Source: Desulfurococcales archaeon (lineage in GTDB: Archaea > Thermoproteota > Thermoprotei_A > Sulfolobales > WANQ01). Taken from it: a stretch of DNA of 10,610 nucleotides. Location: assembly GCA_027043985.1 (NCBI GenBank), contig JALUDQ010000167.1, forward strand, positions 1 to 10,610, in the 5' to 3' direction. The notes below the pieces were generated by a model, which did no database searches, was not told the origin of the DNA, and saw nothing but the letters and a program-made list of their open reading frames with translations. Positions 38 through 9,617 of this stretch are shown piece by piece (position 1 is the first letter of the stretch; each line of letters starts with the position of its first letter). The position numbers and the translations under genes are program-made.

Positions 38-865
38 TCATCTCTCAAGCTCACTTAGCAGTTGTTCCGCCTTCTCTTCCAGTATTCTTGAGGCTTCTAA
101 AACTATTCGCTCTGGCCTAAGAACCCCCGTACTCTCAACATACATTATATATGAGCTAGGCTTCCAGGAAACAAGAATAGCATCATTTGGACATACTTTC
201 TCACATTGCCTACACAGCGAACATGAAAGTTCGTCTTCAACAACAAGCTTACCGTCTTTTATCTTTAAAACATTCTTAGGACATACATTCACACATTTTG
301 CACAAGATTCTCCATAGCATTTCTCCGAATTCACGATTATCTGTGGCACATACTTATGTGTAGCCGCAGATACTGGCGACCATTTTGCATGCTCTCTCCC
401 TCTACCTAGACGTGCCCGTGCTTCAAAGGAGATCTTCTGACCAGGTCCTAGAACTACTATTGGTATATTCTTGTAAACTGGTTGTACATCTTCGTCGTCT
501 GAAACTAGGTCTCCACTATACACTACCTTTGTACCGTCAGAAGCTTCTGCTTCTAAATACAATCTTGCATAACAATCTGGTCTTTCCTCGTTATCCCTAC
601 ACTCTTCGGGAGGACCGTATTTCTCTAACGCTCTATCCGATGTCAGCGGTATTAGGCCTAATCTATGTGCAACTATTTCGTCATATAATGGACTACTGTT
701 TTCTATGAAGTATACGTAGTCTATAGCCATTGACGGAACATCACTTATAGTTAAGCGCCTAATAGCGTTTAGTAAAGCTAGAGGAATATTTTCAACGAGA
801 AATCTTATACTTCTATCATCATATTCTAGTATCTTTATTTTCAATCCAGTAACCTCTCCGAGCAT
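38..865 (-). CDS. rpoD: DNA-directed RNA polymerase subunit Rpo3 (RpoD), with ferredoxin-like domain
   Basis: This is the archaeal counterpart of bacterial alpha and eukaryotic RPB3, which pairs with Rpo11 (RpoL) to start polymerase assembly. The alpha-like core is clear (NAIRR near residue 33, MAIDYVYFIENSSPLYDEIVAHRLGLIP at 46-73 as the conserved block). An inserted ferredoxin-like domain around 180-230 has two complete cysteine sets, C183-x4-C188-x2-C191-x3-C195-P and C215-x2-C218-x2-C221-x3-C225-P, enough for two 4Fe-4S clusters. The ATG at 865 overlaps the rps11 stop as TAATG. A TTG at 844 is an alternative start: it has a GGAGAGGT Shine-Dalgarno 7 nt upstream and would give MKIKILEYDD, matching the N-terminal length of Sulfolobus Rpo3 as I remember it. 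The identity is secure and the start is not. Confidence 0.96.
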   Translation of the reverse strand: MLGEVTGLKIKILEYDDRSIRFLVENIPLALLNAIRRLTISDVPSMAIDYVYFIENSSPLYDEIVAHRLGLIPLTSDRALEKYGPPEECRDNEERPDCYARLYLEAEASDGTKVVYSGDLVSDDEDVQPVYKNIPIVVLGPGQKISFEARARLGRGREHAKWSPVSAATHKYVPQIIVNSEKCYGESCAKCVNVCPKNVLKIKDGKLVVEDELSCSLCRQCEKVCPNDAILVSWKPSSYIMYVESTGVLRPERIVLEASRILEEKAEQLLSELER

Positions 866-1266
866 TAGACTCTTCTACCACGCCTTCCGCCGGGTCTTCT
901 AGTAGTATCGTGTGGTATTGGTGTTACATCCTCTATTCTCCCTATAATGAAACCAGCACGTGCTAGTGCACGTATTGCAGCTTGTGCACCAGGACCAGGT
1001 GTTTTTGGTCCATGGCCTCCGGGTGCTCTTACCTTTATGTGTATAGCTGCTATACCCTTCTCCATGGCTTCATGTGCGGCTCTACTGGCTGCAAGCATTG
1101 CTGCATACGGTGATGGTTTTTCACGGTCAGCCTTTACAACCATACCTCCACTTGCTCTAGATACCGTTTCCGCTCCAGTCAGGTCTGTTATGTGTATTAT
1201 AGTGTTATTTAGTGAGCTGTATATGTGTGCTACCCCCCATTTCAATTCACGTGCATGGAAGGCCAT
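865..1266 (-). CDS. rps11: Small ribosomal subunit protein uS11
   Basis: A 133-residue uS11 of normal archaeal length, a component of the 30S platform that binds 16S rRNA. The conserved core is visible: [22 protein letters not shown] near the N-terminus, [29 protein letters not shown] at about 76-104, and the basic tail [11 protein letters not shown]. The start is well supported: ATG is preceded by GGTGAT at 1272-1277, about 5 nt away. That site begins on the last base of the rps4 TAA stop, so translation of the two genes is probably coupled. It ends in a one-base TAATG overlap with rpoD. Confidence 0.97.
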
Positions 1267-1277
1267 TTACTATCACC

Positions 1278-1796
1278 TTATGATTGTACTTGTTGTTCTT
1301 GTAGTCTTTTAGTATAATAGGGGCTTGTGGGTGTGTAGTCTATTAGATCTTCTTCAGCTCTCTTTACAAGATATCCTGGAGCATTTATGACTCTTCCACC
1401 TATTGCGATATGACGATGAACTATTAGTTGTCTCGCCTCATTAATTGTTCTAGCTAATCCCTTCTTGTATACTATGGTTTGAAGCCTACGGTCAAGTATA
1501 TTCTCAACTGTTAGACGCAGAACGTCGTCTAGTGTAGCTTTTTCAGGCAGCAATCCCATTTCATATAATCGGTGAAGTAATTCTTTCTCAGCTTTCTCTC
1601 TTACCTCAGGAGGAAGGGCCAGTAGCGAGCGTGCACGGTGACGTATACGTTTCAATAGTGTCTTGGCCTTCCAGATTTCTCTCTTATTTCTAAGACCATA
1701 TTTTCCTAAGAGCTCCATTTCCTCCATTAGCCTATCTTTCTTCCATGGATGCTTTGGGCCTTCCCAGGTTTTACGGGGTTTACGTGGGTCTCCCAT
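1278..1796 (-). CDS. rps4: Small ribosomal subunit protein uS4
   Basis: A 172-residue archaeal uS4, a primary 16S rRNA-binding protein of the 30S body. The N-terminal MGDPRKPRKTWEGPKHPW is typical of archaeal and eukaryotic S4/S9 proteins. An S4 RNA-binding domain occupies roughly residues 103-165 and includes RRLQTIVYKKGLA, INEARQLIVHRHIAIGGRVI and APGYLV. The start ATG has a GGTG Shine-Dalgarno with a 7-nt spacer, located in the 14-nt gap after rps13. It lies between rps13 and rps11, the standard archaeal order. Confidence 0.97.
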   Translation of the reverse strand: MGDPRKPRKTWEGPKHPWKKDRLMEEMELLGKYGLRNKREIWKAKTLLKRIRHRARSLLALPPEVREKAEKELLHRLYEMGLLPEKATLDDVLRLTVENILDRRLQTIVYKKGLARTINEARQLIVHRHIAIGGRVINAPGYLVKRAEEDLIDYTPTSPYYTKRLQEQQVQS

Positions 1797-1810
1797 AGCT
1801 TACACCAAGA

Positions 1811-2263
1811 CTACTTTCTTCTCCTCTTTACACCAACAGTTATACCAGTACGGCCTGTTGTAGCAGTTCTCTGTCCACGGACTTTTAGTCCCAATGCGTG
1901 TCTTATACCCCTCCAGCTCTTTATTTTCTTTTCTCGCTCAATGTCTTGTCTAACAACAAATATTAGGTCTGCTCCTATCAAGTGACGGTCATTCCCTGTA
2001 TCATAGTCCTTTCGTCTATTTAACATCCACCCAGGCAAGCCTATCTTGGTTGGATCTGAGAGAGCGTTTTCTATTTTTCTTATCTCGGCATCTGTTAGGA
2101 AGCCTATACGTTTCTCTGGGTCTATGCCTAGTAGACGACACATAGCAAGCGCTAGATTGTATCCTACGCCTTTAATTTCGGAGAGACCATAAGCTACCTT
2201 TAATCTGCCATCGATGTCTGTACCAGCTATTCTAACAATATACTTGAACTCCGATGTAGACAC
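1811..2263 (-). CDS. rps13: Small ribosomal subunit protein uS13
   Basis: uS13 of the 30S head, contacting the P-site tRNA and the central protuberance of the 50S subunit. Recognisable blocks are FKYIVRIAGTDIDG at the N-terminus, a helix-two-turn-helix around GVGYNLALAMCRLLGI, the RRKDYDTGNDRHLIG segment, and the C-terminal KSWRGIRHALGLKVRGQRTATTGRTG. I chose the GTG at 2263, giving MSTSEFKY and 150 residues, because AGGTG at 2271-2275 sits 7 nt upstream and the resulting N-terminus has the family's usual length. The open frame can be extended to another GTG at 2287, adding eight residues of no recognisable similarity. This is the first gene of the operon running to the left edge. Confidence 0.95.
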   Translation of the reverse strand: MSTSEFKYIVRIAGTDIDGRLKVAYGLSEIKGVGYNLALAMCRLLGIDPEKRIGFLTDAEIRKIENALSDPTKIGLPGWMLNRRKDYDTGNDRHLIGADLIFVVRQDIEREKKIKSWRGIRHALGLKVRGQRTATTGRTGITVGVKRRRK

Positions 2264-2327
2264 GTGCAAGCACCTAATTATCGCCACTGTCTCCTAATAC
2301 TAGCTGTTTAGGGAATAATAAATACTA

Positions 2328-2335
2328 TATTTAAA
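2328..2335 (-). promoter_or_regulatory. Putative TATA box/BRE for the rps13-rps4-rps11-rpoD operon
   Basis: On the minus strand, AAGG followed by TTTAAATA resembles an archaeal BRE plus TATA box. It lies about 65-72 bases before the chosen rps13 start, so transcription would begin near 2304-2310 and leave a leader of about 40-45 nt. The region between rps13 and the divergent sfsA contains nothing else obvious. Because the element is close to palindromic (TATTTAAA), it could also serve sfsA in the other direction. Confidence 0.5.
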
Positions 2336-2393
2336 CCTTAATGATACACAACTATAATGCTGTGTTCAACGAGGGAAAGAGGTTAACTACTTT

Positions 2394-3098
2394 ATGCAAC
2401 GGGTTACCAGCATACCATATACTACTATATGTAATATTTTGAGACGGGAGAATAGATTTGTAGTAGAAGTCCTCGTAAACAGTAGTAGGGAAAGAGCATA
2501 TATAAATAATACCGGAAGACTAACAGAAATATTAACAGCTAATAGAATTGGATACTGTATGGAAAGTAAAGGAGCAAGGACCAAATACAGATTATTTGCA
2601 GTTAAGGAAAATGACTTAGCTGCATTAATAGATACTAGAATACAGGAGGAGGTTTTTAGAATACTCGTAAATGAGAAAATGTTGTCTTGGCTAGGTAATT
2701 GTTCCATTATAAAGCGTGCACCAAGACTAGGGGAATCAGTTTTAGACTATCTAATAAGATGCGATAAGAGGATAATCTATGTTGAGCTAAAGAGCGCAGT
2801 TCTACGTGGTAATAGAGAGTACGCTATGTATCCTGACTGTCCATCTCTTAGAGGACGTAGACATATCAAAGAGTTGATAAATCATGCTCGACAAGGAGGA
2901 TTAGGTCTTATAGTATTTATAGCCGCTCTCCCACACATCAAGTACTTTACTCCTAACAAGAATGCAGATCCCGTTATAGCACAGCTTCTCAAAGAAGCTG
3001 TAGGGGGAGGCGTAATGGTGAAGGCCATAAATATCGTTTATAGCCCTCTTAAACAACATGTATACTTAGTTAACGAGGATTTACCCGTTATATTATGA
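2394..3098 (+). CDS. sfsA: SfsA family protein (DNA/RNA nuclease-like)
   Basis: A 234-residue SfsA homologue. The family was named for sugar fermentation stimulation in E. coli; it combines an N-terminal OB-like nucleic-acid-binding part with a PD-(D/E)XK nuclease-like core. Seen here: the N-terminal strand region with NTGRLTEIL (39-47), then D118, and E131-x-K133 in YVELKSA as the catalytic-type triad. These are followed by the family signature AMYPDCPSLRGRRHIKEL, which aligns with the usual A-(M)-(F/Y)-PD...RG.(K/R)H..EL. The catalytic positions look intact, so it should be active if the family is a nuclease. It is transcribed away from the ribosomal operon. Its function in archaea is not established, and a link to the redox genes downstream is only positional. 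Confidence 0.9.
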   Translation: MQRVTSIPYTTICNILRRENRFVVEVLVNSSRERAYINNTGRLTEILTANRIGYCMESKGARTKYRLFAVKENDLAALIDTRIQEEVFRILVNEKMLSWLGNCSIIKRAPRLGESVLDYLIRCDKRIIYVELKSAVLRGNREYAMYPDCPSLRGRRHIKELINHARQGGLGLIVFIAALPHIKYFTPNKNADPVIAQLLKEAVGGGVMVKAINIVYSPLKQHVYLVNEDLPVIL

Positions 3099-7660: not shown

Positions 7661-7832
7661 CTTTTCTATCAAGATTATCTAATCTAGTTTAATGGATATT
7701 TCTAAGTATAAAGTTAGAATTCCTAATATAATGACAAATCACGTGAGTATCTTATTTTCCGAATACGATGAATTTAATTAGCTATTAGAAGTGATACATG
7801 TTTCCATAGAAGAAAGGTGGCAAGAAGAGTAG

Positions 7833-7918
<86 letters not shown>

Positions 7919-7965: not shown

Positions 7966-8551
7966 TGCTTTTCAGTACTTTGTAGCCGGATTTACGTGCT
8001 ACTATTTCAACGTTACCATATGTTTTTTCCATTAGCGATGATATAGTGTTTACTCCTTTTCTTAAGACTATTTCTATTATGCCTTTTTCTACTAGATGGT
8101 TTTTTGCTTCTTCAACTATTTTTTCAACTATTTTTAATCCTGCTGATATGGGGGGATTTGATGCTATTAGATTGAATTTTTTATCTCTTACTGGTTCGTA
8201 TAGGTTTCCTTGGAGGACTATCACTCTATCTTGTACTTTATTTATCTTTGCATTGATTTTCGCTAATTCTATTGCCCGCTTATTAATGTCTATAAGGTAC
8301 ACTTTTAGTGCGGGGTTTATTTTCGCTAAGATTATCCCTATTACGCCGTAACCGCAACCCATATCTAGTGCTGTTCCCTTTTCGGGTATGTCTAGGTTCT
8401 CTATTAGGAGTCTTGTGCCAGGGTCTATTCTTTTGGGTGAAAACACTCCGGGTTCCGTGATTAATTCTATTGGTATTCCTCGTATCACATCTGATATAAC
8501 TGTTCTCCTTCTAGGTGTACTCGGCTTTTTTGAGTAATAGTGGTTTGACAT
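7955..8551 (-). CDS. Class I SAM-dependent methyltransferase, MJ0882/RsmC-like
   Basis: A 198-residue Rossmann-fold methyltransferase. The SAM-binding motif I is ALDMGCGYGVIG (D63-x-G-C-G-x-G), followed by the acidic D88 in LIDINKRAIELAKIN and motif IV SNPPISAG (N132-P-P-I). N-P-P-(I/Y/F) is typical of enzymes that methylate amino groups of bases. The N-terminal HYYSKKPST and the TEPGVFSPKRIDPGT block match Methanocaldococcus MJ0882, a relative of the bacterial 16S rRNA guanine-N2 methyltransferases RsmC/RsmD. The exact RNA target is unknown. Its ATG overlaps the cbf5 stop as TAATG, so the two genes are translationally coupled, which fits a shared role in RNA modification. Confidence 0.92.
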   Translation of the reverse strand: MSNHYYSKKPSTPRRRTVISDVIRGIPIELITEPGVFSPKRIDPGTRLLIENLDIPEKGTALDMGCGYGVIGIILAKINPALKVYLIDINKRAIELAKINAKINKVQDRVIVLQGNLYEPVRDKKFNLIASNPPISAGLKIVEKIVEEAKNHLVEKGIIEIVLRKGVNTISSLMEKTYGNVEIVARKSGYKVLKSIKY

Positions 8552-9617
8552 TATTGTTTTGACCTAGTTTTCCATTTTTTCGGATAAACGCCTGGAGGCA
8601 TTACCACTCTTATTGTCTTAACGGCTATGCCTTTTGATACTTCCCCTATCTCCTTGCTACTCATTAATGCTTTCCCTAATGCTACTAGTTCTCCTTTTAG
8701 AGTCATTAATGCAACCTTGTCTCCCCTCCTTATATTATCGTGCAACATAACTATACCAGGTACTGCTAGATCTGCTCCATGTGCTATCGAGTCTACGGCT
8801 GAGTCACGTATAATGATCTTAGACATATGGCTTACAATATATTCCATTGGAAGAATAGTTTTTCTAAGCAATTTTTCACTCCCACTACTACGCCATTCAT
8901 AAATAGCTTCAGATAGCTGCTGCATAGTGACTAGTGTCTCATCTTCTTTGAAAGGACCAGTACGTGTTCTCCTTAATTCCCTCATGTGTGCTCCTACTCC
9001 CAGAACCTCGCCTACATCATGGCATAGTTTTCTCATATATGTTCCGGCTTCACAGCCTATTCTCAACAATGCGTATTTTCCTGTGTACTCTAACAATTCT
9101 ATATAGTATATCGTTTTTACACGTATGGTCCGCTTTACGCTCGATCTTAATGGCGGTTTCTGATATATTTTGCCAACGAATTCGTTGAGAACTTTTCTTA
9201 ACTTGTCTTCAGACACTTCACTATGGAGCTGCATTACGCATACGTATTCCTTGCCGGAATGCACTATGTTTCCGATAACTTTTGTGGCGTTTTCCAGGGC
9301 TACTGGTAGAACGCCGGTTACCTTGGGGTCTCCCCACCCCACGTGTTTTACACGTGGGGTTCTAGGGTACCCCCATGTCCGGCCTTGTTTAACCCTAGCA
9401 TCCGTTTTATCCAGGCTACTACTTCGTGACTTGTTGGTCCTGGCGGTTTGTCCAGGTTTATTACTCCGTTTCGGATATGTTCTTTTATCTCACGTTTCCA
9501 GGGGAAGCTCCCGTAATTAGGGTTTGTCTCTTCTTCTACTTTTACTATCCAGTTAGCCTTCACATCGCCGTATTCATCTAGTTTCTTGATAAAATCTAAG
9601 CCGTTCTTATACTCCAT
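8551..9617 (-). CDS. cbf5: tRNA/rRNA pseudouridine synthase Cbf5 (dyskerin/TruB family), intron-containing
   Basis: Cbf5 is the catalytic subunit of H/ACA ribonucleoproteins (with Nop10, Gar1 and L7Ae) and also acts on tRNA U55. The reading frame is in two pieces: exon 1 is 9617-9362 and exon 2 is 9329-8551. Joined, they give 1,035 nt, 344 residues and an uninterrupted frame. Exon 1 has [20 protein letters not shown] and ends in GHGGTL. Exon 2 begins with [12 protein letters not shown], so the joined GGTLDPKVTG restores the catalytic Asp (D86). Downstream are the K-E-Y motif (Y114) and the C-terminal PUA domain (about 250-335). Without splicing the product stops after 89 residues. The start ATG has a GGTG Shine-Dalgarno 8 nt upstream. 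Introns at this site are known in crenarchaeal cbf5 genes. Confidence 0.95.
9330..9361 (-). other. Archaeal BHB intron in cbf5 pre-mRNA (32 nt)
   Basis: The RNA folds into a bulge-helix-bulge motif recognised by the archaeal tRNA-splicing endonuclease. The intron hairpin is a perfect 11-bp stem ACCCCACGUGU/ACACGUGGGGU (9360-9350 and 9346-9336) with an AAA loop. Two 3-nt bulges, both AGA (9363-9361 and 9331-9329), flank a 4-bp central helix CCCU/GGGG (9367-9364 and 9335-9332). Cleavage between the second and third bulge bases removes 32 nt and joins CTA-G|AC-CCC, a phase-1 junction. The outer exon helix is irregular (GGGG with CCCC, with UA bulged out), so this may be a relaxed BHB. Junction slippage over the repeated AGA cannot be excluded but would give the same mRNA. 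Confidence 0.92.

Follow-up and report, generated by a model that had tools for sequence, protein, structure and literature searches.

Is the cbf5 gene at this locus broken, or could it be made whole in RNA? The window, a stretch of 10,610 nucleotides from a Desulfurococcales archaeon (GCA_027043985.1, contig JALUDQ010000167.1), carries cbf5 on its minus strand, split over two reading frames by a 32-nt insert (9361–9330). We take this insert to be an archaeal cbf5 intron of the bulge-helix-bulge (BHB) kind, which the splicing endonuclease would excise such that an Asp codon is restored, and which belongs to introns whose stop codons in the exon-1 frame look selected. We put the probability of this reading at roughly 0.94.

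Architecture of the Split cbf5 Gene

The ORF listing and profile search identify cmk (truncated at the window end), L14e, cbf5 and an RsmC-like methyltransferase as the minus-strand genes of the window. The parts of cbf5 are as follows.

9362–9617, minus strand: cbf5 exon 1, 85 codons plus the G of the Asp codon; ATG at 9617, the start codon given by the mechanical ORF list
9330–9361, minus strand: predicted BHB intron of 32 nt, from the frame break, the fold and an identical copy in genome G001
9348–9350, minus strand: in-frame TAA within the intron, ending the unspliced reading (ORF listing); the intron has its stop in the exon-1 frame only
8551–9329, minus strand: cbf5 exon 2, the AC of the Asp codon, 258 codons and the stop; begins AC CCC AAG

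On profile scores the host gene is cbf5: exon 2 alone passes both NCBIfam cut-offs, with 374.4 bits against NF003280 (cut-off 242) and 353.9 bits against TIGR00425 (cut-off 238). The exon 1 piece scores 96.1 bits against TIGR00425 CBF5, below the cut-off, as for a fragment. Exon 1 reads to GHGGTL and one further G, and the unspliced reading continues with EPHV before the TAA, giving an ORF of 89 amino acids (9348–9617). Exon 2 picks up at PKVTG in a different frame; removal of 32 nt yields GGTLDPKVTG, with the insertion site between bases 1 and 2 of the Asp codon. The D at this junction is the catalytic Asp of Cbf5 (Yokobori 2009, PMC2738675). A preliminary description of the window had placed the insert at exactly 9330–9361 without stating the strand; that position, the frame break, the stop after GHGGTL and the rejoined reading are all borne out by the ORF listing and by relatives.

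The sequence comes from a metagenome assembly, 63% complete and in 264 contigs, which is the argument for an assembly or sequencing error, or a decaying cbf5, behind the frame break. The alignment of relatives that the preliminary description had proposed as a check argues otherwise. The intron is identical, at 32 nt, in a separate metagenome assembly (G001), which makes a genome error unlikely, and G003 has a different intron of 37 nt with the same helix. Both exons are open and well-scoring, and changes across relatives are compensatory (see below). We consider error or decay very unlikely.

The Insert Folds into a Bulge-Helix-Bulge Motif

The 63-nt stretch comprising the insert and its flanks folds with −36.5 kcal/mol, compared with a shuffle mean of −21.9 (z −4.7; 0/200 shuffles as good). 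The elements of the fold are listed below, with a slash at each predicted cut.

9364–9367, minus strand: central helix, 5′ strand CCCU, in the Thr-Leu codons of exon 1 (fold; covariation over 242 introns)
9332–9335, minus strand: central helix, 3′ strand GGGG, in the intron (fold; covariation over 242 introns)
9361–9363, minus strand: 5′ bulge AG/A (fold), predicted cut 9362/9361
9329–9331, minus strand: 3′ bulge AG/A (fold), predicted cut 9330/9329
9336–9360, minus strand: inner hairpin, 11 bp with an AAA loop (fold)
9369–9373, minus strand: outer helix, 5′ strand GGGGU, with ACCCC at 9325–9329 (minimum-energy fold)

The fold thus agrees with the 11-bp hairpin, the AGA bulges and the 4-bp helix described earlier. 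The minimum-energy form pairs U9369 with A9329, which shortens the 3′ bulge to 2 nt and leaves a single A bulged out; the strict form with 3-nt/3-nt bulges, at −32.6 kcal/mol, is not the best fold. As modeled, the motif is a BHB or relaxed BHB with predicted cuts after the second residue of each bulge. Both junctions read AGA, so that four adjacent cut positions would give an identical spliced mRNA, and the choice of a G/AC cut comes from bulge geometry alone. Some archaeal endonucleases accept relaxed BHB-like motifs as substrates, and the Aeropyrum enzyme has a broader specificity (2025 structure paper, PMC12397907), which suits the irregular outer helix of the window intron.

Introns at the Same Position throughout the Class

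Using the exon-2 protein as query (E ≤ 1e-40), we found matches in 203 of the 229 genomes of the window's class. All but one of these (202/203; the match in G147 starts past the junction) were read at the DNA level in any frame, and 198 could be resolved. The intron is present in 169 of the 198 resolved genes and absent from 29. The genes left aside lie at contig ends (G002, G157) or are intron-like, with exons in different frames, and missed by the motif (G225, G219). Also kept outside the counts were L321, L323 and L325 (kinship not given, or a duplicate of G327; the intron is 20 nt long in L321 and absent from L325), 80 named loci except those recurring under G handles, and G379–G553.

Class introns are 13–67 nt long (median 31), and all introns, in the class and beyond, span 13–76 nt and all three frames. 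Published cbf5 introns, at the same position in Desulfurococcales and Sulfolobales, are 16–44 nt long, and that of Sulfophobococcus zilligii is 32 nt (Yokobori 2009, Table 1, PMC2738675). The introns of 13 nt are thus shorter than the published minimum; they occur in L041 and L044 (f4) and in L388–L390, L409, L416 and L419 (f21), with a complete central helix and scant room for an inner helix. The longest are those of L308 (G270, f33; 76 nt) and L281 (G217, f13; 67 nt), against a published maximum of 44.

Three features that the preliminary description had held to be specific to this sequence are shared with the class. Twelve of the 169 class introns are also 32 nt long, 19/169 have at least 11 contiguous inner base pairs, and an outer helix offset by 2–3 nt on its 5′ side is the best-pairing register of the class. 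The 5′ bulge is AGA in 149/169 class introns, and the third base of the 3′ bulge is A in 169/169.

On a quick Cbf5 tree with open forks and long branches, where gain and loss are indistinguishable, intron state requires eight changes within the class. The intronless genes belong to f7 (Pyrodictiaceae, by names), f6 (which we take to be Ignicoccus), f4:g14, f12, f5:g34 (in two places), f9:g48, and f9:g47 with g53. These eight changes compare with a published scheme of gain in the common ancestor of both orders and probably at least two losses, in Pyrodictiaceae and Ignicoccus (PMC2738675). The pattern bears on the proposal by Watanabe and Yokobori that the intron is retained as a negative regulator of Cbf5 level (Yokobori 2009, PMC2738675). 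Retention in 169/198 class genes would fit such a role, but the repeated changes of state speak against it, and we regard regulation as distinctly unlikely; there is no need to assume a regulatory role for the intron.

The Central Helix Covaries and May Constrain Two Codons

Of the 242 introns read at this position, 238 form all 4 bp of the central helix: 167/169 in the class, 55/57 in other Thermoproteota and 16/16 in an Asgard set, the last including both copies from mixed bins (see below). The BHB intron reading given earlier is upheld by this comparison, as is the position of the junction in the Asp codon (G/AC), which agrees with the published site. Helix cells pair in 99.4% of cases, against a mean of 95.2% and a maximum of 96.1% when the 3′ letters were shuffled 500 times, and 35 cells are changed on both sides, against a shuffle mean of 2.5 and a maximum of 8; none of the 500 shuffles reaches the observed values, although these statistics are inflated by related sequences. 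Slid registers, which are free of that effect, pair only 33–71% of cells. The both-side changes give CCCU:GGGG, CUCU:AGAG, CCUU:AAGG, CACU:AGUG and CUUU:GAAG. Judged from these alignments, the changes are compensatory: a change in the Thr or Leu codon is matched in the intron strand. Among the 223 introns of at least 16 nt, the first four inner pairs form in 95.2% of cells, compared with 70.7% in shuffles.

The helix is incomplete in four of the 242 introns, those of G021 and G118 and two other Thermoproteota rows (3/4 pairs). In L014 (G021) and L086 (G118), of genus f9:g18, CCCU faces GGUU in the common register; these two introns may use another register.

Half of the central helix lies in codons. 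The third base of the Thr codon preceding the junction is C or T in 169/169 class genes with the intron versus 14/29 without, and Leu is CTA in 158/169 versus 10/29; Fisher values for this bias ignore relatedness. Third-position entropies for Thr and Leu are 0.37 and 0.38 bits with the intron, and 1.93 and 1.77 without. None of 43 other codons examined has a comparable gap in that direction, the next largest being that of the Pro codon after the junction (1.40 versus 1.99). In this alignment, near-fixation of the Thr and Leu codons is confined to genes that have the intron. Codon release after loss, assessed in independent pairs, is not significant: a Thr pyrimidine gave 3 pairs for, 0 against and 4 ties of 7 (median p 0.25), and median p was 0.63 for Leu CTA and 0.38 for Pro CCC. 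The direction agrees with a codon lock but lacks significance.

Frame-Keeping Introns Carry a Stop Codon

An intron whose length is a multiple of three (3n) and which held no stop would let an unspliced mRNA give full-length Cbf5 lacking the Asp. All 46 of the 3n introns in the class have a stop in the exon-1 frame (46/46), against 7 and 8 in the other frames and a mean of 12.5 (maximum 23) in 300 shuffles of the intron core. Counted by genus, the figures are 30/30 versus 3 and 6, across seven families, and among distinct introns 43/43 versus 7 and 8 (binomial p 2e-33, relatedness ignored). The first stops lie 2–10 codons past the Asp codon and comprise 20 TAG, 17 TGA and 9 TAA. The 3n share among class introns is 46/169, or 27% against one third. 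Some cbf5 introns were already described as keeping frame in Yokobori 2009 (PMC2738675), whose main text leaves stops unmentioned.

The excess has the signature of selection, and its probable target is unspliced mRNA that would give full-length Cbf5 without the Asp. Such a protein would, we guess, occupy H/ACA particles as a dead enzyme, and it is for this putative reason that stops in the exon-1 frame look selected. An alternative is that the stops clear ribosomes off the BHB to give the endonuclease access, rather than avoid a dead protein. Frame-shifting class introns are indeed also enriched in exon-1-frame stops, with 41/70 (13 and 13 in the other frames; shuffle 19.4) and 28/53 (13 and 2; 10.8) for the two lengths modulo three, and the window intron, although not 3n, has such a stop. 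The effect is absolute, however, only in 3n introns, at 43/43 distinct introns versus 64/115 frame-shifting ones (Fisher p 1.7e-9, relatedness ignored), and we find ribosome clearing doubtful. The unspliced reading terminates within 52 codons in 169/169 class genes, at a median of 5.

Outside the class, 3n introns carry the stop in 7/7 and 2/2 cases, and those of length 2 modulo 3 have no clear excess (6/22 and 3/9). We base the stop rule on the class because the outside rows were picked partly by short frames and shuffles there equal the counts, also reaching 7 and 2.

A programmed ribosomal frameshift or a bypass of the 32 nt, in place of RNA splicing, would leave an identical protein product, and the first cbf5 examples were taken by others for frameshifting (PMC2738675). 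Lengths of 13–76 nt in three frames, together with a stop in 46/46 class 3n introns, fit removal of RNA better, and both spliced cbf5 cDNA and endonuclease cleavage are published for relatives (PMC2738675). Recoding by the ribosome therefore merits hardly any weight.

The stop rule resembles that of ciliate short introns: in Paramecium and others, 3n introns are enriched in in-frame stops, and retention ends translation (PMC5014332). The ciliate introns are, in contrast, spliceosomal, spread over many genes and linked to nonsense-mediated decay (PMC5014332), whereas the archaeal case concerns a single gene and a protein endonuclease. If selection acted as we suggest, the rule would be a sign, drawn from comparison, that archaeal mRNA left unspliced is translated and does harm.

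Introns at the Same Position in Other Thermoproteota and in Asgard Archaea

Among 150 genomes of other Thermoproteota (80 + 70), 146 have a match (1e-25 and 1e-30), and 83 were read at the DNA level; 57 of the 83 have the intron and 26 do not. In the phylum of Jordarchaeum, 141 of 148 genomes have a match, and with one named genome added, 40 copies in 38 genomes were read, 16 with the intron and 24 without. These shares are biased, because best matches and rows with a short exon-2 frame were chosen. That cbf5 introns at this position were known, as the preliminary description stated, is correct (Yokobori 2009, PMC2738675); their restriction to crenarchaea in the old sense is not.

Two of the 16 Asgard-set introns lie in second copies of mixed bins, which leaves 14. 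The bins concerned, G641 (L400/L401) and G610 (L403/L404), each hold a pair of cbf5 genes, only one of which has the intron. The copy G641b is sister to a Thermoproteota row, and the intron-bearing copy is on that placement probably foreign to its bin; the placement of G610b is unsure. Named intron-bearing records are Candidatus Jordarchaeum madagascariense EB_bin_7, Candidatus Jordarchaeia QZM_A3 and Candidatus Sigynarchaeota SQRJ_179. The taxonomy, in which the name Jordarchaeum madagascariense was not found, places Sigynarchaeota in Promethearchaeati; we take Jordarchaeia to be Asgard archaea. A stray short contig is not the cause in G563 and G582, whose contigs are 1,110,802 and 443,129 bases long.

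In a quick tree of 313 rows, covering Thermoproteota and Asgard archaea, intron state changes at least 18 times. Ten of the 14 Asgard rows fall in three groups among intronless Asgard Cbf5, and the remaining four on a branch adjoining the Asgard cluster, with a weakly supported place; none of the 14 falls inside the window's class. One account of this distribution is that a single Asp-codon BHB intron is older than the divergence of Thermoproteota from Asgard archaea and has disappeared on many occasions, and that every frame-keeping intron must carry a stop because unspliced mRNA is translated and would give a dominant-negative, Asp-less Cbf5. We hold this combined account at even odds; if true, Archaea would have a counterpart of the ciliate 3n rule that works without a spliceosome.

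Instead of one ancient gain, the introns outside the class, Asgard ones included, might have separate origins or have been passed on with cbf5. The patchy distribution with its at least 18 changes, the scatter of intron-bearing Asgard rows over several groups and the differing Asgard helix sets (CACU, CUCU, CUUU) point that way. The nucleotide position, the bulge pattern and the pairing scheme are nevertheless the same throughout, and repeated independent gain at a single phosphate would be hard to credit to chance unless the site were favored. We see separate origin or transfer as a serious contender that falls somewhat short of an even chance. An Asgard presence would push the origin of the intron far back or show that it spreads, in either case close to the lineage from which eukaryotes are held to have arisen.

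A Model for Removal of the Intron

From the position, fold, covariation, codon bias and stop excess observed here, we infer both cutting and joining of the cbf5 transcript. In the transcript, the Thr-Leu codons that end exon 1 would base-pair as CCCU:GGGG with the last part of the intron. Each bulge would then be cut at AG/A by the splicing endonuclease, and an RNA ligase would join G to AC, restoring the catalytic Asp codon. Unspliced mRNA would give no active Cbf5; it is presumably translated, and the intron stops in the exon-1 frame would cut the unspliced message short. Comparison with relatives likewise favors the earlier proposal that the unspliced product of 89 residues is dead and that active Cbf5 would depend on the endonuclease.

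Endonuclease genes matching PF01974 number two each in G001 and G003 (one of those in G003 below the curated cut-off) and one in G002; a PF01974 search of the window's own genome, 63% complete, gave no match. At least two such genes are present in 72 of the 80 genomes tested, intron-bearing and intronless together. We rejected endonuclease type as a cause of intron presence or loss: at least two PF01974 genes occur in 46/50 intron-bearing versus 26/30 intronless genomes, the intronless state of G230, G239, G237 and G244 being taken from a long open frame only. A trans-spliced or split cbf5 was also set aside; the two-piece matches of G109 and G134 and the cut matches of G150 and G151 all end at contig ends.

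Relation to Known Introns

The window intron is of a known kind. It shares with published cbf5 introns the gene, the Asp-codon position and a BHB-like fold, and EndA does the cutting of the cbf5 intron (PMC2738675). The window organism is absent from the published list, in which most structures are termed unconventional and Watanabe 2002 and Yoshinari 2006 are cited as earlier cbf5-intron work (Yokobori 2009, PMC2738675). With the BHB introns of archaeal tRNA and rRNA genes it shares the predicted endonuclease and the motif (PMC2738675), but its host is protein-coding, half of its central helix lies in codons, and it is too short for a homing endonuclease. A 2020 paper describes the crenarchaeal cbf5 intron as the only additional BHB intron reported, with a function not known (PMC7714728).

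Apparently new here are the spread to other Thermoproteota and Asgard archaea, further state changes, the near-fixation of two codons, the helix covariation and the stop rule. The open-licence literature yielded no report of an Asgard cbf5 intron, which is not proof of priority, nor any of further losses, compensatory helix sets or the 3n stop rule. Annotation of many archaeal genomes runs the risk of listing cbf5 as two broken genes.

Other Features of the Locus and of Related Genes

A tRNA-Ser gene (anticodon tga, 87 nt) lies at 7832–7918 on the minus strand, and an Rfam scan of the window returned nothing besides this one tRNA. At 8551, the ORF of the RsmC-like methyltransferase overlaps the cbf5 stop codon by one base at its start; this overlap suggests that the two are co-transcribed.

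Inserts of another kind occur in some related genes. L410 (G229:C11:291900-294900, 103–2496, minus strand) encodes a Cbf5 with an intein (Pfam Intein_splicing, 80 bits, and LAGLIDADG_3), which interrupts the exon-2 part between RKL and the following Cys; a 22-nt Asp-codon BHB intron is present in this gene as well. Asgard Cbf5 frames of 836–867 amino acids, with a large in-frame insert near query residues 100–108, are found in L411 (G577), L412 (G608), G604, G605 and G660, and the inserts of L411 and L412 look like inteins at the same place.
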